Below are positions 33,414 to 60,374 of a DNA stretch of 64,000 nt, one piece after another. This DNA comes from Campylobacteraceae bacterium. Lineage in GTDB: Bacteria > Campylobacterota > Campylobacteria > Campylobacterales > Arcobacteraceae. The first letter of the stretch is position 1, and every line of letters starts with the position of its first letter. The stretch is taken from assembly GCA_013373175.1 (NCBI GenBank), contig JABXII010000007.1, positions 1 to 64,000 on the forward strand, written 5' to 3'. A program made the translations under genes and the position numbers. Below the pieces are notes generated by a model. It did no database searches. It worked only from the letters and a program-made list of their open reading frames with translations, and was not told the DNA's origin.

Positions 33414-33436
33414 AAGAAGGCTTTAAAACCTTCTTT
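33413..33436. terminator. Convergent terminator hairpin
   Basis: AAAGAAGG (33413-33420) pairs with CCTTCTTT (33429-33436) across an 8-base loop. It overlaps the stop codon of the PAS response regulator gene and that of the HisI-RibA gene. Confidence 0.7.
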
Positions 33437-34337
33437 AAAGCATATGTCCTAGATGCTCTTTTTTAGTTTTTAGGTAGTTTTCATTGTGCTTATTTGTTTT
33501 TGTAAGTGCAGGAACTCTTGTATCTATTTCAATTCCACAACTTTTAACAAACTCAATCTTTTTGGGATTATTAGTAATTAGTTTTATCTTTTTTAAATTT
33601 AAGTCTTTTAGTATAAAGCCAACTGCATCATAATCTCTTTCATCAGCTTTAAATCCTAGTTTTAGATTTGCATCCACAGTGTTAAATCCTTGGTCTTGAA
33701 GATTATATGCATTTACTTTATTTACAAGTCCAATATTTCTTCCTTCTTGTCGATGATAAATAACTAATCCACCTTCTTTGGAAATAAGCTCTAAGGCTAA
33801 ACCTAGTTGATTATTACAATCACATTTTAAGCTACCTACTGTATCACCTGTTAAACACTCAGAGTGTATTCTAACTAATGGTGTTTTTATCTCTTTGAAA
33901 TCTTTACTCATAATTGCAAGGTGTTCTTGACAACCATCTTTATAAGCTTTAATATCAAAGTTTCCATATCTTGTAGGAAGATTTGCTATTTGTGATTGGA
34001 TAATATCTTTTTTCTTTTCTTCTTTAAAATAAGACCTAAAGAAACACGACTTTTCTCCTGTATGACAAGCAGTGTTCCCAACTTGTTCAACTATTACTAA
34101 AATAGTGTCATAATCACAATCAACTTTTAGCTCAATTAATTTTTGAATATGACCACTACTTTCTCCTTTCTTCCAAATTCTATTTTTACTTCTTGAAAAG
34201 TAGTGAACTATTTTCGTTTCAATAGTTAAGTCAAAAGCTTCTTGGTTCATATATCCAAGCATTAAAACTTCATTTGTACCAAATTCTTGTGTTATAACTG
34301 GAACTAATCCATTTCCTTTTTTAAAATCAATATTCAT
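33435..34337 (-). CDS. Fusion of phosphoribosyl-AMP cyclohydrolase (HisI) and GTP cyclohydrolase II (RibA)
   Basis: A 300-residue fusion. Residues 1-105 are HisI (GYMNQEAFDLTIETKIVHYFSRSKNRIWKKGESSGH, VDCDYDTILVIV, NTACHTGEKSCFF with metal-binding Asp and Cys). Residues about 118-300 are GTP cyclohydrolase II (LVRIHSECLTGDTVGSLKCDC with the three Zn Cys, YHRQEGRNIGLVNKVNAYNLQDQG, KKIKLITNNPKKIEFVKSCGI). HisI acts in histidine synthesis and RibA in riboflavin synthesis. The HisI/RibA fusion is unusual. It is the third gene of the znuC-znuB operon, 14 bases after znuB, under the paired palindromes at 35921-35977. Both halves keep their zinc ligands, so it is not an obvious zinc-free substitute. 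Other hisI and ribA copies may exist outside the window. Confidence 0.9.
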   Translation of the reverse strand: MNIDFKKGNGLVPVITQEFGTNEVLMLGYMNQEAFDLTIETKIVHYFSRSKNRIWKKGESSGHIQKLIELKVDCDYDTILVIVEQVGNTACHTGEKSCFFRSYFKEEKKKDIIQSQIANLPTRYGNFDIKAYKDGCQEHLAIMSKDFKEIKTPLVRIHSECLTGDTVGSLKCDCNNQLGLALELISKEGGLVIYHRQEGRNIGLVNKVNAYNLQDQGFNTVDANLKLGFKADERDYDAVGFILKDLNLKKIKLITNNPKKIEFVKSCGIEIDTRVPALTKTNKHNENYLKTKKEHLGHML

Positions 34338-34351
34338 ATTTTCTCTTTTCT

Positions 34352-35161
34352 TTATTTTTTTATACTCTTTATTATGAAAATAACCAATGCAAAAAGTGAA
34401 CTACTTATTATAATAGAAGGTCCAGAACTCACATCAAATTGATATGAGATATAAAGTCCTATAATAGTAAATATTATTGATAAAAATGCAGATACAAACA
34501 TCATTGATAATAAGTTTTTACAAAAAAAGCTTGATATATAAATTGGTATAGTAAGTAGGGCGATAACTAATATCAATCCTACAACCTTGATTGATATAAC
34601 AATTGCTAAACTTGATAGAATCAAGATTAATGTATAAAAGAATTTTGTTTTTATTCCTCTTAAACTTGCATATTCTGTATCATATGAAACTGCTAAGATA
34701 TCTCTGTAAAAAATCATTACAATAGCAATTGTAAATATTAGTAAAAAAGCCATATAATATAAGTCTTCATTTGTTACAGCAAGTAAAGAACCAAAAAGAT
34801 AACTCATCAAATCAGATTGATATCCAGGTGTAAGGTCTGCTAAGATTATTCCAAAAGACATACCCACAGCCCAAGTAAGACCAATCATAATATCTAAGTT
34901 TTCTCTGTTTTTATAACTTGCAAAAGCTATAAGAATACTAATAAGTACACAAAATACAGAGGTTGATAGAAGCATTGGCAAGCCAAAGTACATTGCTATT
35001 CCAATACCACCATAAGCACTGTGGGCAATTCCACCTGATAAAAATACCATTTTATTTACAACAACATAAGTTCCTATTATGGCAGTAATAACACTAATAA
35101 TAGCACCTGCAATTAAAGCATTTTGGATAAATGAGTATGAAAGTAGTTCTAGCATCTGCAT
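34352..35161 (-). CDS. znuB: Metal ABC transporter permease (ZnuB-like)
   Basis: 269 residues with about eight membrane helices, typical of the ABC-3 family (VVNKMVFLSGGIAHSAYGGIGIA, IMIGLTWAVGMSFGIILADLTPGY, YTLILILSSLAIVISIKVVGLILVIALL). The family transports Zn2+, Mn2+ or Fe2+ across the inner membrane. It overlaps the ATPase gene by 13 bases. No periplasmic metal-binding protein (ZnuA) is encoded nearby; it must be elsewhere. The metal is inferred as zinc from the HisI/DksA/DUF1826-type neighbours in the same putative regulon. Confidence 0.85.
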   Translation of the reverse strand: MQMLELLSYSFIQNALIAGAIISVITAIIGTYVVVNKMVFLSGGIAHSAYGGIGIAMYFGLPMLLSTSVFCVLISILIAFASYKNRENLDIMIGLTWAVGMSFGIILADLTPGYQSDLMSYLFGSLLAVTNEDLYYMAFLLIFTIAIVMIFYRDILAVSYDTEYASLRGIKTKFFYTLILILSSLAIVISIKVVGLILVIALLTIPIYISSFFCKNLLSMMFVSAFLSIIFTIIGLYISYQFDVSSGPSIIISSSLFALVIFIIKSIKK

Positions 35162-35895
35162 CTTCCTAACATCTCCAATAATTCAATTTCACAAACATGA
35201 GAGTCAATAGATTTAAATTCATCTTTCATAGTAGTTAAATCATGATGAGTAAGTCTTTTATTTACATAAAAAGCTTTTGATGCATATTTTAAAATAACTG
35301 AAATATCATGGCTAACTACAATTATTGGGATATTTTTGTTTAACTCTTCTAAAGTAGAGTAAATTTGTTCGCAACCTTTTATATCTATATTTGAAGTTGG
35401 TTCATCAAGAAGTAAAATTTTTGGTTTAGAAAAAAGGGCACGAGCAATTAAAACTCTTTGTCTTTGTCCTCCTGAAAGATTTGATATTCTATTTTTTGCA
35501 AACTCTTTCATCTTTACTTTTTCAAGAACTTCCATTGCTCTTTGTTTCTCTTCTTTTTTGTATCCAAATAATCTTTTAGTAAGACAGTTTTGCCCCATCA
35601 TCACAACTTCAAGTACAGTAATTGGAAAGTTTAAATTTACATTTGTATTTTGAGGTACATAACCTAAGTTACAAATTTGCTCATAGTGCTCTTGTCCAAA
35701 TATTTTTATGGTGCCACTATTTAAATCATTTATTCCAAGAATAAGTTTTAGTAAGGTTGATTTACCTCCACCATTTGGACCTATTATTGTTAAAAAGTCT
35801 TTTTGTTTTATTTCAAAGTTTATATCTTCTAAAACCTTTTGTTTATCATAAGAAAAACTAAGGTTTTTAACTTCTACTGCATTGTCTATTTGCAT
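35149..35895 (-). CDS. znuC: Metal ABC transporter ATP-binding protein (ZnuC-like)
   Basis: 248 residues: Walker A GPNGGGKSTL, signature ISNLSGGQRQRVLIARALF, Walker B KILLLDEPTSNID, and the switch His in VVSHD. It resembles ZnuC (NLGYVPQNTNVNLNFPITVLEVV Q-loop region). The C-terminal CEIELLEMLGRCRC holds several Cys. It is the first gene of the operon, with palindrome boxes 26 and 68 bases upstream of its start. It powers metal import with the adjacent permease. Confidence 0.88.
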   Translation of the reverse strand: MQIDNAVEVKNLSFSYDKQKVLEDINFEIKQKDFLTIIGPNGGGKSTLLKLILGINDLNSGTIKIFGQEHYEQICNLGYVPQNTNVNLNFPITVLEVVMMGQNCLTKRLFGYKKEEKQRAMEVLEKVKMKEFAKNRISNLSGGQRQRVLIARALFSKPKILLLDEPTSNIDIKGCEQIYSTLEELNKNIPIIVVSHDISVILKYASKAFYVNKRLTHHDLTTMKDEFKSIDSHVCEIELLEMLGRCRC

Positions 35896-35920: not shown

Positions 35921-35977
35921 TGCAACTAAGTTGCAGTAAAATTTTAACGAATAAATATAAAATGCGACTTAGTTGCA
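35921..35977 (-). promoter_or_regulatory. Paired Fur-family-type operator upstream of znuC
   Basis: Two 15-bp boxes of 7-1-7 symmetry: TGCAACTAAGTTGCA (35921-35935, plus strand) and, reading the minus strand, TGCAACTAAGTCGCA (35963-35977). Centres are 42 bp apart. The same two sequences, same variant, occur 44 bp apart before dksA at 54309-54367. A likely -10 element lies between them. The 7-1-7 form is typical of Fur/Zur/PerR-family sites; the zinc repressor Zur is the best guess from gene content. The rest of 35896-36045 holds no gene. Confidence 0.75.
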
Positions 35978-54151: not shown

Positions 54152-54308
54152 TATTTACCTTTTAAATATTTTTCATATTATAGCACTAATTAGAGTATTT
54201 AATATTATTATTTTTAACTGATAATACTTTTTAAAGTTGAGAAATTTTATAAAAAACAATAATTAAGTTATAAATCTTAAATAAACCACTACAAATAAAA
54301 TTATTTAT

Positions 54309-54367
54309 GCAACTAAGTTGCACTTAAACCTTATTTGATAAAATCCAAAATTGCAACTAAGTCGCAT
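54309..54367 (+). promoter_or_regulatory. Paired Fur-family-type operator upstream of dksA
   Basis: TGCAACTAAGTTGCA (54309-54323) and TGCAACTAAGTCGCA (54353-54367), 44 bp between centres. They are identical in sequence to the pair before znuC. Between them TTTGATAAAAT is a plausible -10 element, so a bound repressor would cover the promoter. The 291-base region 54152-54443 contains no gene. Confidence 0.75.
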
Positions 54368-54403
54368 AGTTGAATTAGAAAATTTGAATTTCTCCTATGC
54401 GAT
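54363..54403 (+). promoter_or_regulatory. 5'UTR hairpin overlapping the second operator box
   Basis: TCGCATAG (54363-54370) pairs with CTATGCGA (54396-54403), and inside it AGAAA (54378-54382) with TTTCT (54390-54394). The left arm is part of operator box 2. A G6 tract (54412-54417) follows. It might affect mRNA stability or translation of dksA. Confidence 0.45.
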
Positions 54404-54443
54404 ACAAATTGGGGGGCATTTGCTTTAAAATAAGGAATATTTT

Positions 54444-54803
54444 ATGTTAAAAAAAGAACATATAGAAGAACTTAAAACTCAACTTTTAGATAAAAAACAA
54501 AAGTTACTTGAAGAAGCTTCAATAAGTCAGAATTTTATTGAAGAGCTTCATAGTGATACAAAAGGTGATGAAGCAGATATTGCAGAAATATCTTTGGATA
54601 CACATAATCTTAGCCTTTTAAGAGAAAAGCAAGTTGAAGAGTTAAGAGAGATTGAACATGCTTTAAAGAAGATTGAAAATGGTACTTATAATGTTTGTGA
54701 AATGTGTGATGAGCCAGTAGGCTTAAAAAGACTTAGGGCAAAGCCTCATGCAAAATATTGTATTGAGTGTAGAGGTATTTTTGAAAAAGAACAAAAATCT
54801 TAG
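54444..54803 (+). CDS. dksA: DksA/TraR-family zinc-finger transcription factor
   Basis: 119 residues: coiled coil (about 1-80; LLDKKQKLLEEASISQNFIEELHSDTKGDEADIAEI) with the acidic tip typical of DksA, then a four-cysteine zinc finger (YNVCEMCDEPVGLKRLRAKPHAKYCIEC, CxxC-x17-CxxC). DksA enters the RNA polymerase secondary channel and acts with ppGpp. SD AAGGAA. Unlike zinc-free DksA2 paralogues it keeps all four Cys, though it stands behind a presumed metal-responsive operator. It heads a four-gene operon. Confidence 0.9.
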   Translation: MLKKEHIEELKTQLLDKKQKLLEEASISQNFIEELHSDTKGDEADIAEISLDTHNLSLLREKQVEELREIEHALKKIENGTYNVCEMCDEPVGLKRLRAKPHAKYCIECRGIFEKEQKS

Positions 54804-54834
54804 ATTTTGCTTGTATATATAAAAAGGAAAGATA

Positions 54835-55089
54835 ATGTCAAATTGCCCATACTGTGGTAAAAAAATACCTATGAATAAAGCTTTTTGTTCTAAAACCTGT
54901 AAAGAAAACTATTTTCAAATGGTCGCAATACAAATTCCTCAACCATTTTTAAAAAGAATATTTATTTTCTGTACCAAGGAACAAAGAGAAGTTGAAATTG
55001 AGAATTTTGCTAAAAGACATCGTTGGGATTATGAACTTGTTAAAAAGAAGATTGATGATTACGCAATTGAATTTGGCTATGACAAATAA
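54835..55089 (+). CDS. Small zinc-ribbon protein
   Basis: 84 residues. CPYCGKKIPMNKAFCSKTC gives a CxxC-x11-CxxxC zinc ribbon of the DUF2116 type at the N-terminus; the rest (about 25-84) is helical with IQIPQPFLKRIFIFC and HRWDYELVKKKIDDYAIEF. It is 31 bases after dksA. Role unknown; it may bind RNA polymerase or another nucleic-acid machine, or hold zinc. Confidence 0.75.
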   Translation: MSNCPYCGKKIPMNKAFCSKTCKENYFQMVAIQIPQPFLKRIFIFCTKEQREVEIENFAKRHRWDYELVKKKIDDYAIEFGYDK

Positions 55090-55107
55090 GTAAAAATAAG
55101 GGAATAA

Positions 55108-55380
55108 GTGAAAAATATAAAAGTAGAATTAGAAAGCATAATATTTAATGTGATGCTACCAGAATCAAAAGCTTTTTTAGATGAATTAATTGAAGAAATA
55201 GAAAAAGGAAATGATGAAGAAGAGATTATGGAAGCAAAAGAAGATGTTGAATTTTTTATTGAAGAATTAAATCATGTTTTAAAACTGATTGAAGAGAAAA
55301 GACTATCAAATAAAGATGCAAAAGATATGTATAAAAAAATTAGAAATATGCTTGATGAACATGACCATGAACATCAATAA
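55108..55380 (+). CDS. Acidic helical protein with histidine-rich C-terminus
   Basis: 90 residues, GTG start with AAGGGAA upstream. Strongly acidic helices (ESKAFLDELIEEIEKGNDEEEIMEAKEDVEFFIEELN) end in LDEHDHEHQ, a short His/Asp/Glu cluster able to bind a metal such as zinc. No known family. Placed in the dksA operon, a metal-handling role is a natural guess. Confidence 0.65.
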   Translation: MKNIKVELESIIFNVMLPESKAFLDELIEEIEKGNDEEEIMEAKEDVEFFIEELNHVLKLIEEKRLSNKDAKDMYKKIRNMLDEHDHEHQ

Positions 55381-55400
55381 ATGTTAAAGGGAAAATAATA

Positions 55401-56072
55401 ATGAATAAAAAAAATTTAAATATTACTAGTAAAAGGGGTCAAGCAGAAGGCATATCTGGACATATGTCTTATGGTAAACAGCCAACAGTTTTTAGTGATA
55501 TCTACCAAGAAAATATTAATATAGCCATTTGGCAGCGACAGAGACCAGATGCTTTAAAATATTCGGTAAAAGAGTTTTTAACATTGAATCCTACCTTTGA
55601 AAAGGAAATGATCTTAACGCCACAAGATACGTTTTCTCGTGTTAGTGAATCTTTTGATAATAATATGACTGAAATTAGCGAAGATATTGCTGAACTTGTG
55701 GATATGTTTTGTTATTTGTTTGAACTTAAGCAAGCAGGCATGCGTTTGAAAGTTTTAGATAAAGCGATGTGCCCTAAATTTCATGTGGACAAAGTACTTT
55801 GCCGTCTTGTGACAACCTATCAAGGTATAGCCACAGAATGGCTGCCACACGAGGTGGTTGACCAAACAAAACTAGGGTGGGGTTGTAACGGTTTGCCTGA
55901 CAGTGAATCTGGACTTTATCAAAGTGAAAGTGATATCCAAGAACTAGTTTGTGGTGATGTTGCATTGTTTAAAGGTACGCTTTGGGAAGGTAATGAAAAT
56001 GCTGGCTTAGTCCACCGTTCGCCAGAATTGATAACTAATGAAAAGCGTTTGATATTAACTTTAGATTTTTAA
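55401..56072 (+). CDS. DUF1826 family protein, GC-rich and probably acquired
   Basis: 223 residues. NIAIWQRQRPDALKYSVKEFLTL, GMRLKVLDKAMCPKFHVDKVLCRLVTTYQGIATEWLPHEVVD and GDVALFKGTLWEGNENAGLVHRSPE are features I associate with DUF1826, a family reported near zinc-responsive (Zur, COG0523) genes; its reaction is unknown, though the H...D/E pattern hints at a metal-binding cupin-like hydroxylase. Counting lines 55801-55920 gives about 45-53% GC against about 27% in the preceding gene, and it uses CGT, GGC and GCC codons, suggesting recent transfer, perhaps from a gammaproteobacterium. Last gene of the dksA operon. Confidence 0.75.
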   Translation: MNKKNLNITSKRGQAEGISGHMSYGKQPTVFSDIYQENINIAIWQRQRPDALKYSVKEFLTLNPTFEKEMILTPQDTFSRVSESFDNNMTEISEDIAELVDMFCYLFELKQAGMRLKVLDKAMCPKFHVDKVLCRLVTTYQGIATEWLPHEVVDQTKLGWGCNGLPDSESGLYQSESDIQELVCGDVALFKGTLWEGNENAGLVHRSPELITNEKRLILTLDF

Positions 56073-56537: not shown

Positions 56538-57641
56538 ATGGCACAACGAATAAAATCTAAAAAGTACCCGGGTGTTTATTACAGAGAGCTAAGTAATGGT
56601 GATAAGTCATATGATATAACTTATAAAGTTGATAATAAAAAAGTTTGGCTAAAAATAGGCTTACATAGTGAGGGTATAAGAGAAGCATACTGTCATCAAA
56701 AGAGAAATGAAATAGTAACTAAACAAAGATTAGGAGAAGAACTACCTCATGTAGCATCTAAAAAGACTTCTAAGACACTATTAGAACTTGCAAAAGAGTT
56801 TTATGATTATAAAGAGCTTTATAATAAACAAAATAAAAAAACTAGATCAAGAGTAGAAAATAGATTAAATGATCACTTTATTGGTACTAAGGCTGTAAAA
56901 ACAATAACAAAATCTGATATGGAAAACTTCCAAATTGAGATACAAAAAGATCTTATGCCTGCAACAGTTAATTTTACTATGCAACAAATTGGTGGAATAT
57001 TTATTTGGGCAATAGAAAATGAAGTACTTGATAAAAATCCTTGTAAAGGAATAAAAAAACTAAAAGTAAATAATTCAAGACTTAGATACCTTGAAATAGA
57101 TGAAATAAAAAAGCTTACACAAACTCTTAAAAATGATAAGATAGCATATTACTTTGTAATGCTAAGTTTAGCAACAGGAGGAAGACTACAAACGATATGC
57201 CATATTAAACCATCTGACATAAAAGAAAATGGAACAATAAAGCTATATGACTTTAAAAACAATAGTGAATATTATGGATTTATAAATAAAGAGCTTAGAA
57301 TTGAAATAGAGCAGTTTATATCAGAACTAAATATAAAAAAAGATGATTATTTATTTAAAACTACAAAAAATCAAAACTACACAAATCAATACTACTATAG
57401 AAAACTCCAACCTATATTTGACATACTGTTCAATCCTGAAGGAACAGAACCCCTAAATAAAGTAACTATACATACACTAAGACATACATTTGCAAGTCAA
57501 TTAGCTATAAATGAAACTCCAATACTTACAATCAAAAAACTTATGAATCATAATGATATAAATGCAACGATGAGATATGCTAAGTTAAGTAAGAGTAGTG
57601 GAGAGAAGCATGTGGATAGTTTGATTAAGAGTTTTATTTGA
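56538..57641 (+). CDS. Tyrosine recombinase (phage-type integrase)
   Basis: 367 residues. N-terminal arm-binding region (about 1-60; RIKSKKYPGVYYRELSNGDKSY), core-binding domain (about 75-175), catalytic domain with Arg216 (ATGGRL), His312 and Arg315 (HTLRH), His338 (MNHND) and the nucleophile Tyr347 (MRYAK): all key residues are present, so it is probably active. It lies 75 bases to the right of the aroE remnant and points away from it. It would integrate and excise the island. Confidence 0.93.
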   Translation: MAQRIKSKKYPGVYYRELSNGDKSYDITYKVDNKKVWLKIGLHSEGIREAYCHQKRNEIVTKQRLGEELPHVASKKTSKTLLELAKEFYDYKELYNKQNKKTRSRVENRLNDHFIGTKAVKTITKSDMENFQIEIQKDLMPATVNFTMQQIGGIFIWAIENEVLDKNPCKGIKKLKVNNSRLRYLEIDEIKKLTQTLKNDKIAYYFVMLSLATGGRLQTICHIKPSDIKENGTIKLYDFKNNSEYYGFINKELRIEIEQFISELNIKKDDYLFKTTKNQNYTNQYYYRKLQPIFDILFNPEGTEPLNKVTIHTLRHTFASQLAINETPILTIKKLMNHNDINATMRYAKLSKSSGEKHVDSLIKSFI

Positions 57642-57783
57642 AAATAGAACGGTACTGAAAAATTAAAAAGTATATAAGTATTATGTAGATATCATACAAA
57701 TGATTTTATCAGGATAGGAAACTCAAATAATAAATATAAATTCATCACTTTTAGAAAAAAATAATTATTCTACTTTTAAAACA

Positions 57784-59103
57784 ATGCAATATCTTGGTGC
57801 AAAGAATCGTTCTTTAAATACAATTATAGAAGAATGTTCAAAATATAGTAAAGGTGGATATATACTTGATTTATTTGCTGGTTCTACTATAGTTTCACAA
57901 GCGTTAAGTAGCACCTACAATAATGTAATTTCAAATGATATTCAAATGTATAGTAAAGTTTTTGCAAATGCAACATTAAAAATAAATTATGAAACAAAAG
58001 ACTTTCAACACTTTTTTTCATTGTTAGATGATATAACTTCAAATTCTATTGAATATAAATTTTACAGTAAATTTAAAACTTTTGTGGAAAAAGAAAAAGA
58101 ATTACTTCATGCAAAGAACTCTGAAAAACTAATGTTATACTATTCTACCTTCCCAAATATTTGGAGAGAGTGTGAAAATAAGTCACAATACATTGAAAAA
58201 TTACACAAAAGTTTACAAGAAAATATTGATAGATTAGGTTTTAATATTGGCCCAATTGTTACTTTGAATTACGCAGGAACATATTTCGGGATTAAACAAT
58301 CTTTAGATTTAGATTATTTAAGAAATTCTATTGAAGAGATAAAAAGAAAAGAATATATTACTGAATGGGAATATAATATGTTTTTAACTTGTTTATTATC
58401 AGTAGTTTCTAAAATTGTATTCTCAGCAGGAAAGCATTTTGCACAACCAGTTAGCTCAGAGGGAGTACTACGTAGTTCTATATTAAATCAAAGATTATTA
58501 ACAGATAGATCATATGATGTATTAGAACTTTTTAATAAAACAGTTAAAAGTTTTTTAAAACATTCTGAGAAAATTTCACATGCTAAAAATAATATTTCAT
58601 TAAATAATTCAATGGAAAGTTTTTTAGAAGATGATTTAGAGTTACCAAAGATTGATGTTATCTATGCAGACCCACCATACACTGCTCAACAATATTCTAG
58701 ATTTTATCATATTCCAGAAGTAATAGTTCAATATAAAATCCCTAAACTGCAAATTCATAAAGGTTCTGTTACAAAGGGAATTTATCCTGAAGATAAATAT
58801 AAATCTCGTTTCTGCTCAAAAACAAAAGTAAAAGAAGCTTTCAAAGATTTATTTAAATTAACTAAAAAATTAGATTCAGTTCTTATTTTAAGTTATTCAG
58901 AATCAAAAAACAATACAACAGGAAATGAAAGAATGATTGATTTAACTACATTAGATCAATTACAACAAGAAATTATTCCTGAATATAATTCAACCAAAGT
59001 TGAATTTAATTTTGATTATAAACAATTAAATAATTCGAAGTTTATAGATAATAAAAAAAGTGATAAGGAAATACTATTGGTATATAGTAAAAAAGTTAGA
59101 TGA
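57784..59103 (+). CDS. D12-class adenine-specific DNA methyltransferase, first of a pair
   Basis: 439 residues from ATG 57784. MQYLGAKNR opening, SAM motif ILDLFAGSTIVSQAL (about 27-41), NDIQMYSK, and catalytic DPPY at 296-299 (DVIYADPPYTAQQYSRFYH) indicate N6-adenine methylation. Open frame extends upstream to about 57727 without ATG/GTG/TTG (INSSLLEKNNYSTFKT), so an ATA start near AGGATAGGAAA is possible. It overlaps the next gene (ATGA). The partner methylates presumably the other strand. Confidence 0.88.
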   Translation: MQYLGAKNRSLNTIIEECSKYSKGGYILDLFAGSTIVSQALSSTYNNVISNDIQMYSKVFANATLKINYETKDFQHFFSLLDDITSNSIEYKFYSKFKTFVEKEKELLHAKNSEKLMLYYSTFPNIWRECENKSQYIEKLHKSLQENIDRLGFNIGPIVTLNYAGTYFGIKQSLDLDYLRNSIEEIKRKEYITEWEYNMFLTCLLSVVSKIVFSAGKHFAQPVSSEGVLRSSILNQRLLTDRSYDVLELFNKTVKSFLKHSEKISHAKNNISLNNSMESFLEDDLELPKIDVIYADPPYTAQQYSRFYHIPEVIVQYKIPKLQIHKGSVTKGIYPEDKYKSRFCSKTKVKEAFKDLFKLTKKLDSVLILSYSESKNNTTGNERMIDLTTLDQLQQEIIPEYNSTKVEFNFDYKQLNNSKFIDNKKSDKEILLVYSKKVR

Positions 59104-60374
59104 TACAAAGATATTTAGGAAATAAAACATCATTTATAGATGAAATTATTAAAGAAATTGATAAACTTTGTAATAAAGAAGACTATGTTTGTGATATTTT
59201 TTCTGGTACTCTATCAGTATCTATGAAATTAAAAGAAAAAGGATACAAAGTAATTTCTAATGATATAAATCGTTTTTCATATTGTTTTGGGAAAAGTCAT
59301 CTTTTAAATAATACAATACCAATAATAGATTTAAAAAAACTGGGAATTAATTTTAACGAGTATGAAAATGAAGCACTTAATAGATTAAATGAAATAAATA
59401 CTAATGATGAAGGCTTTAAGTTTTTAAAAAAACAGAAATATAGAATCCCTTATATTAATCTTATTATTTTATTAAAATATCTTGATAATTTAGATTCAAC
59501 TAAACTCCCATCTAGTTATAATAATACGTATTTCTTTGACTATTACACAGAAAAAGGGTCTCATAGTAAATTTATTAGTCAAAGAGGTAGTGAAGGAAGA
59601 CGTAAATTCTTTACACCTGATAATGGTTCTAGAATTGATTTATACTTAAATAAAATAAGAGAATGGTTTAATAATAAATTACTCAATGATGATCTATATT
59701 TTTTACTACTATCTATTATTTCAGAATCTATTGAAAAAATAAGTAATACTCAAGGAACATTTCATGATTTTCCAAGAGAGCAATATGATTCAAGAGCATT
59801 GAAAGAATTAAAATTAAGACTACCAAAATTTGATAATATTCTATCTAAAACAGAAGGACATATTTTAGGAAAAGAACGTGACTCATTAGATTTTATAAAA
59901 GAAGTCCCAAGACATAAAGTTTTATATATTGATCCTCCTTATAACTTTAGACAATATACTTCATATTATTTTATGTTAAATCTTATTTGCGACTATTGTG
60001 AAATTAAAGACTTAGAAAAATATTTTAATAATGTGAAATTTGTAAGAGGACAAAATATGGAAAAAAATTTTATTTCTTCATTTTGTAAGAATTCAGAATT
60101 TATTTCTTCTTTAAAAAAACTTATTAAAGATGCAGATACAGAATGGATAATCATGAGTTATTTTAATGGAAGAAACCATAAAACGTCTAATAATGATAAG
60201 AAATGTATTCTAACTGATTTAGAAAACTTTTTTAAATCTGAATTATTTGAAAAAGACTCACTAATTATAAAACCTATTGAAAGAAAAAACTATCAAAGTT
60301 ATGGTGGTCATAAAGCAACTAAAGTAGATGAATTATTATATATAGTAAAAAAGGATAAAAATGAGATGGTTTAA
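59100..60374 (+). CDS. D12-class adenine-specific DNA methyltransferase, second of a pair
   Basis: 424 residues. MIQRYLGNKTSFIDEI opening, SAM motif VCDIFSGTLSVSMKL (about 30-44), SNDINRFS and DPPY at 278-281 (KVLYIDPPYNFRQYTSYYF). It is a diverged paralogue of the preceding enzyme (the DPPY-x3-QY and YLGxK blocks align) and starts at the ATG overlapping its stop. Two different methyltransferases imply an asymmetric target in which each protects one strand, as in LlaJI. It overlaps the McrB-like gene by 14 bases. Confidence 0.88.
   Translation: MIQRYLGNKTSFIDEIIKEIDKLCNKEDYVCDIFSGTLSVSMKLKEKGYKVISNDINRFSYCFGKSHLLNNTIPIIDLKKLGINFNEYENEALNRLNEINTNDEGFKFLKKQKYRIPYINLIILLKYLDNLDSTKLPSSYNNTYFFDYYTEKGSHSKFISQRGSEGRRKFFTPDNGSRIDLYLNKIREWFNNKLLNDDLYFLLLSIISESIEKISNTQGTFHDFPREQYDSRALKELKLRLPKFDNILSKTEGHILGKERDSLDFIKEVPRHKVLYIDPPYNFRQYTSYYFMLNLICDYCEIKDLEKYFNNVKFVRGQNMEKNFISSFCKNSEFISSLKKLIKDADTEWIIMSYFNGRNHKTSNNDKKCILTDLENFFKSELFEKDSLIIKPIERKNYQSYGGHKATKVDELLYIVKKDKNEMV

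Follow-up and report, generated by a model that had tools for sequence, protein, structure and literature searches.

Paired palindromes upstream of znuC and dksA as probable operators of a Zur-type regulon in Arcobacteraceae

What do a zinc transporter operon and an operon headed by a dksA paralogue have in common that both should carry the same pair of palindromes ahead of their first gene? The question is raised by a 64,000-nucleotide stretch of an Arcobacteraceae genome (contig JABXII010000007.1, positions 1 to 64,000; hereafter the window), in which the following features bear on it.

33435-34337, minus strand: hisI-ribA fusion, phosphoribosyl-AMP cyclohydrolase plus GTP cyclohydrolase II (profiles, residues read)
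34352-35161, minus strand: znuB, zinc ABC transporter permease (Pfam ABC-3)
35149-35895, minus strand: znuC, zinc ABC transporter ATPase (Pfam ABC_tran; zinc ABC transporter models)
35921-35935: putative Zur box proximal to znuC, TGCAACTAAGTTGCA on the plus strand, the exact consensus (matrix of 102 paired sites)
35963-35977: putative Zur box distal to znuC, TGCGACTTAGTTGCA on the plus strand, which is TGCAACTAAGTCGCA on the minus strand
54308-54322: putative Zur box distal to dksA, TGCAACTAAGTTGCA on the plus strand
54352-54366: putative Zur box proximal to dksA, TGCAACTAAGTCGCA on the plus strand
54444-54803, plus strand: dksA paralogue with intact C4 zinc finger (CEMC...CIEC)
54835-55089, plus strand: ZnR, 84-aa treble-clef zinc ribbon, DUF2116-like
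55108-55380, plus strand: Htail, 90-aa, mostly charged protein ending HDHEHQ
55401-56072, plus strand: DUF1826 protein (PF08856)

The 15-bp palindrome (consensus TGCAACTnAGTTGCA) is present in two copies at each of the two promoters, spaced 42 bp apart at the znuC locus and 44 bp apart at the dksA locus. A preliminary description of the window had reported both pairs with these spacings and had noticed four sites only; the coordinates bear this out, no further site being found in the whole window at up to two mismatches, except that the start it gave, 54309, is one base off (the first dksA box begins at 54308), and the four gene assignments of the dksA operon are confirmed as well. Hardly any such sites arise by chance: 60 dinucleotide shuffles of the window yielded a mean of 0.017 sites at up to one mismatch and not a single pair. 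By eye, a -10-like GATAAAAT lies between the dksA boxes just upstream of the proximal one, and a -10-like GTTAAAAT lies on the minus strand between the znuC boxes, before the proximal one; a simple sigma-70 scan called no promoter at the boxes.

Across the genome (2.76 Mb, 38 contigs), the 7-1-7 palindrome occurs at up to one mismatch at four loci only, namely znuCB-hisI/ribA, dksA-ZnR-Htail-DUF1826, zur/znuA and metH, while a reversed control pattern gives no match. Six more sites appear at exactly two mismatches, five of them inside genes and none at a metal gene. The preliminary description had proposed both a one-mismatch genome scan and a search for zur or fur genes; zinc uptake genes are among the loci returned by the former, and the latter finds a Fur-family gene at the third locus, outside the window, where a box pair 48 bp apart separates znuA from a divergent gene for a 124-aa Fur-family protein (G000 C20:56778-57149; Pfam FUR, 59.9 bits), our candidate Zur. 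The znuA product has a His-rich loop, and the gene is followed by one for a 488-aa NicO-family membrane protein (L018:9278-10744), which overlaps the end of znuA and is likely to be co-transcribed with it.

We consider it highly probable, judging from the sequence evidence set out below, that the palindromes are operators of this Zur-type repressor, which would co-control zinc uptake and zinc-related genes. Within the Fur family the 124-aa protein is divergent, and it is named Zur by its context. It scores 22.4 bits against the NCBIfam Zur equivalog NF008646 (cut-off 167) and hence does not belong to that subtype; among solved structures, those of PerR are closest to it. Because it falls so far below the curated Zur model and its nearest structures are PerR, we infer its zinc specificity from targets and neighbourhood. 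Alignment columns C85, C88, C116, C119, H80, H82, E92 and C93 are invariant in 17 orthologues, and the structural Cys4 site and HxH metal ligands of the Fur superfamily are present, features that do not discriminate zinc from iron.

Conservation ties the boxes to this regulator. Around the orthologous regulator, the zur/znuA boxes are kept in 26 of 29 relatives, and as a pair in 25 of 29. When 102 distinct paired sites are combined into a matrix, a clean 7-1-7 palindrome results, an operator architecture known for the Fur family. Spacing within pairs ranges from 34 to 53 bp across relatives (mostly 44-50), and such variation means that cooperative binding is not assured. Both searches were run on 27 genomes: the 20 that possess the regulator carry 1-11 sites and the seven without a close orthologue carry 0-1 (Mann-Whitney p = 6e-5, with the relatedness of the genomes not corrected for).

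Could another member of the family, Fur or PerR, read the boxes instead, so that the genes respond to iron, manganese or peroxide? Palindromes of the 7-1-7 type are common to the whole Fur family, the regulator next to the boxes is nearest PerR among solved structures, and the genome encodes three other Fur-family paralogues, two of which score best as Fur and one as PerR. However, the seven genomes that have no close orthologue of the 124-aa regulator still keep other Fur-family proteins and yet are the ones with next to no boxes, and what the boxes stand in front of is zinc import and zinc proteins. We therefore regard control by Fur or PerR as improbable.

The strongest argument for zinc as the signal of the putative Zur regulon is that its gene set overlaps a published list: HisI, PyrC, QueD and DksA are listed among families of zinc-dependent proteins that have paralogues under Zur control in beta- and gamma-proteobacteria (Haas et al. 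2009, PMC2770081). The Pseudomonas Zur regulon comprises PA5534 (DUF1826), PA5535 (zigA/COG0523), PA5536 (dksA2), amiA, folE2, cam and znuABC (PMC2770081, PMC9431628). The system described here resembles it in having DUF1826 share a zinc-starvation cluster with a DksA paralogue, in its zinc-enzyme paralogues and in its Fur-family repressor. It differs in that DksA has all four cysteines, in that the genome lacks a COG0523 GTPase and has ZnR and Htail in its place, and in the box itself, which is TGCAACTnAGTTGCA and not of the GTTATAnTATAAC type. DUF1826 also recurs in Francisella novicida, where FTN_1758 was identified by RNA-seq in a Zur study (PMC5786701); the passage on it mentions no dksA-ZnR-Htail operon. 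A Zur regulon is thus a known kind of system, but one that is apparently undescribed for Arcobacteraceae in the literature searched, in which we found no description for Campylobacterota.

Gene order in relatives suggests how the two window operons belong together. In one congener (G008) a single run, znuC-znuB-hisI/ribA-dksA-Htail-DUF1826, follows one box pair; in a second genus (G029) a box precedes hisI/ribA-dksA-ZnR-Htail-DUF1826; and pAFAEC, a plasmid of Aliarcobacter faecis, has one exact box with pyrC-queD on one side and hisI/ribA-ZnR-Htail-DUF1826 on the other, znuCB being nearby. These arrangements indicate that the two operons are pieces of one shuffled regulon. Two further congeners have boxes followed by ZnR-Htail-DUF1826 (G002) or by Htail-DUF1826 (G004). 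Taken over all relatives, the genes behind boxes comprise zur/znuA, znuCB, a second znuABC, hisI, ribA, hisI/ribA fusions, pyrC (a dihydroorotase; TIGR00856, 390 bits), dksA, ZnR, Htail, DUF1826, TonB-dependent receptors and a NikA/CntA-like substrate-binding protein. The proposal of the preliminary description, that znuCB-hisI/ribA and dksA-...-DUF1826 form one regulon, most likely of Zur, is upheld by the regulator at znuA, the conservation in 26 of 29 relatives, the co-occurrence of boxes and regulator, and the fused operon of G008. As separate observations, hisI and ribA halves are individual genes in G017, each under box control, and pAFAEC (L284; 140 kb) holds most of the zinc-starvation gene set together.

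A different concern is that the dksA operon is a passenger of a neighbouring mobile element and its boxes fortuitous. Directly downstream of DUF1826, at 56538-60374, lie a tyrosine recombinase gene and then two D12-class DNA adenine methyltransferase genes (no tRNA was found in the window that might serve as an integration site for the recombinase). The DUF1826 gene has 36% GC compared to 28.5% for the window and is patchily distributed (10 of 61 genomes), and in A. faecis the gene set sits on a plasmid. Against this, the genes keep their boxes in varied contexts and arrangements in several genera, and mobility is in any case compatible with Zur control, so that we think it very unlikely that the boxes are fortuitous. 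Least credible of all is that the palindromes are RNA hairpins or terminators: three boxes are listed as terminator-like stems by a scan, but we reject this reading because the stem is disrupted in many conserved copies (for instance TACAACTAAGTTGCA and TGCAATTCAGTTGCA) that otherwise retain the 7-1-7 sequence, and because the boxes lie upstream of gene starts, in pairs and often between divergent genes.

How might the putative Zur boxes work? We infer that DNA is bound by the repressor, that zinc is the signal and that control is negative: a zinc-bound Zur dimer would occupy each 7-1-7 box of a pair, and since the pair would bracket the -10 region and transcription start, RNA polymerase would be blocked. 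Upon zinc shortage, Zur would be released and zur/znuA-NicO, znuCB-hisI/ribA and dksA-ZnR-Htail-DUF1826 would come on together, the outcome being more zinc import and extra zinc-type copies of HisI, RibA, DksA and ZnR, along with DUF1826.

These extra copies are of an unexpected kind. The hisI/ribA fusion, a single gene encoding 300 aa, is a second copy in addition to separate hisIE (C21:74464) and ribA (C37:134100) genes elsewhere in the genome, and the dksA of the window is one of three DksA/TraR-family genes in the genome. We considered whether the second copies are cysteine-free back-ups of the Pseudomonas DksA2 type and rejected this, since the zinc cysteines are kept: the C4 finger of DksA is intact, and zinc ligands are likewise retained in ZnR, HisI and RibA. 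With zinc enzymes that keep their zinc sites, the usual zinc-sparing rationale fails for the set, and extra copies, or copies of higher zinc affinity, would be the remaining explanations. There is precedent, in that HisI, CysRS, ThrRS, QueD and AmiA are Zur-regulated paralogues that retain zinc (PMC2770081). HisI and QueD follow that pattern, having intact zinc sites and predicted Zur control; in contrast to the published cases, HisI of the window is fused to RibA, and DksA keeps the zinc site that theirs have lost. On the evidence of the retained sites in DksA, HisI, RibA and ZnR, zinc starvation would sometimes lead cells to make further zinc-type copies in preference to zinc-free replacements.

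The two small proteins, both put forward in the preliminary description as candidates for zinc handling, fare differently. ZnR has a relative in 35 of 37 genomes of the family, and a search of 23 further genomes from the order detected none. The usual copy, represented in this genome at C37:120281, has no box and is a paralogue of the window ZnR, whereas in G017, G025, G064, G027 and G033 (four genera) a divergent ZnR gene immediately follows a box, adjoining hisIE in all of these except G027. All ZnR copies keep the four zinc cysteines. Because ZnR thus has separate box promoters elsewhere, beyond the window operon, its place in the regulon is well supported by genome comparison. A predicted model (pLDDT 88; alignment with the row for one public plasmid record left out) gave no clear PDB fold match, and sequence searches found no solved relative of ZnR; neither result speaks for a new fold. 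For Htail, on the other hand, the idea that its His tail marks zinc handling finds no support, as the tail is no richer in His than those of its paralogues, which carry 0-3 His at the same place (a distant one is at C9:9864 in this genome). Htail is assigned to the regulon from its operon position in several genomes, and in G004 it is the first gene behind the box pair.

The DUF1826 protein matches its family profile over the full length (PF08856, 200 bits against a gathering cut-off of 22). Its nearest relatives outside the Arcobacteraceae are from marine gamma-proteobacteria, with up to 63% identity; together with its elevated GC content and patchy distribution, this makes acquisition by transfer likely. 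At gamma-proteobacterial DUF1826 loci a COG0523-like ORF is present in 47 of 74 cases, in most directly before DUF1826, and five such ORFs that were tested are cobW/CobW_C proteins. A gamma-type Zur box is found at 35 of the 74 loci compared to 1-2 in dinucleotide shuffles, in most cases immediately before DUF1826 or the GTPase. As for the genome studied here, a search for COG0523 proteins returned UreG and HypB only. Expression data connect DUF1826 to zinc or Zur in F. novicida (PMC5786701) and P. aeruginosa (PMC9431628).

What, then, might DUF1826 do? Sequence searches found no solved relative, and an AlphaFold model (46 sequences; pLDDT 88.8, pTM 0.85) matches Fe(II)/2-oxoglutarate dioxygenases of the double-stranded beta-helix fold throughout the list of hits, including ethylene-forming enzyme (E 2.5e-6), PHD2 (Z 11.2 over 152 residues, 3.3 A) and a bacterial prolyl hydroxylase (Z 10.5). 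The sequence itself has what would be the HxD...H iron triad and the 2OG-binding Arg, as H128-x-D130 ... H205-x10-R216 (HxD...Hx10R), invariant in all 46 sequences. Predicted fold and HxD...H...R motif are thus shared with PHD2, prolyl-4-hydroxylase and ethylene-forming enzyme at about 10% identity, and on the strength of the model we predict that DUF1826 is an iron-dependent oxygenase of the Fe(II)/2-oxoglutarate type. Rather more speculatively, and with the odds against it, the oxygenase might be made only in zinc starvation and modify a protein or small-molecule zinc ligand, partnered by the COG0523 GTPase in gamma-proteobacteria and by the lineage-specific ZnR and Htail in Arcobacteraceae, which would constitute a second way of handling scarce zinc.

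The operator, regulator and gene list would apply across the Arcobacteraceae, a family with emerging human pathogens. Unnamed small proteins would gain a defined expression condition, and DUF1826, which has been connected to Zur since 2009 but had no function assigned, becomes a testable enzyme through its predicted oxygenase fold. Two proteins are worth following: DUF1826, for its predicted oxygenase fold, and ZnR, as a putative zinc-starvation protein specific to this lineage.

metH is possibly a further Zur target, as a fourth and weaker candidate. In this genome a single box lies about 110 bp upstream of it, just after a terminator-like stem (G000 C21, L019:6774-6788). The single box is kept in three congeners, and two other congeners have a pair upstream; two relatives have a box pair before a methyltransferase-metH unit, and in G023 boxes are followed by znuABC-ZnR-metH, but many relatives are without a metH box. 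Boxes are also found in several relatives, though at no such gene in this genome, close upstream of the gene for a porin-like protein of the outer membrane, some 280 aa long (L195:3951-4799, L187:3083-3949, L198:2313-3143, L066:247-1143), a candidate zinc-starvation protein.
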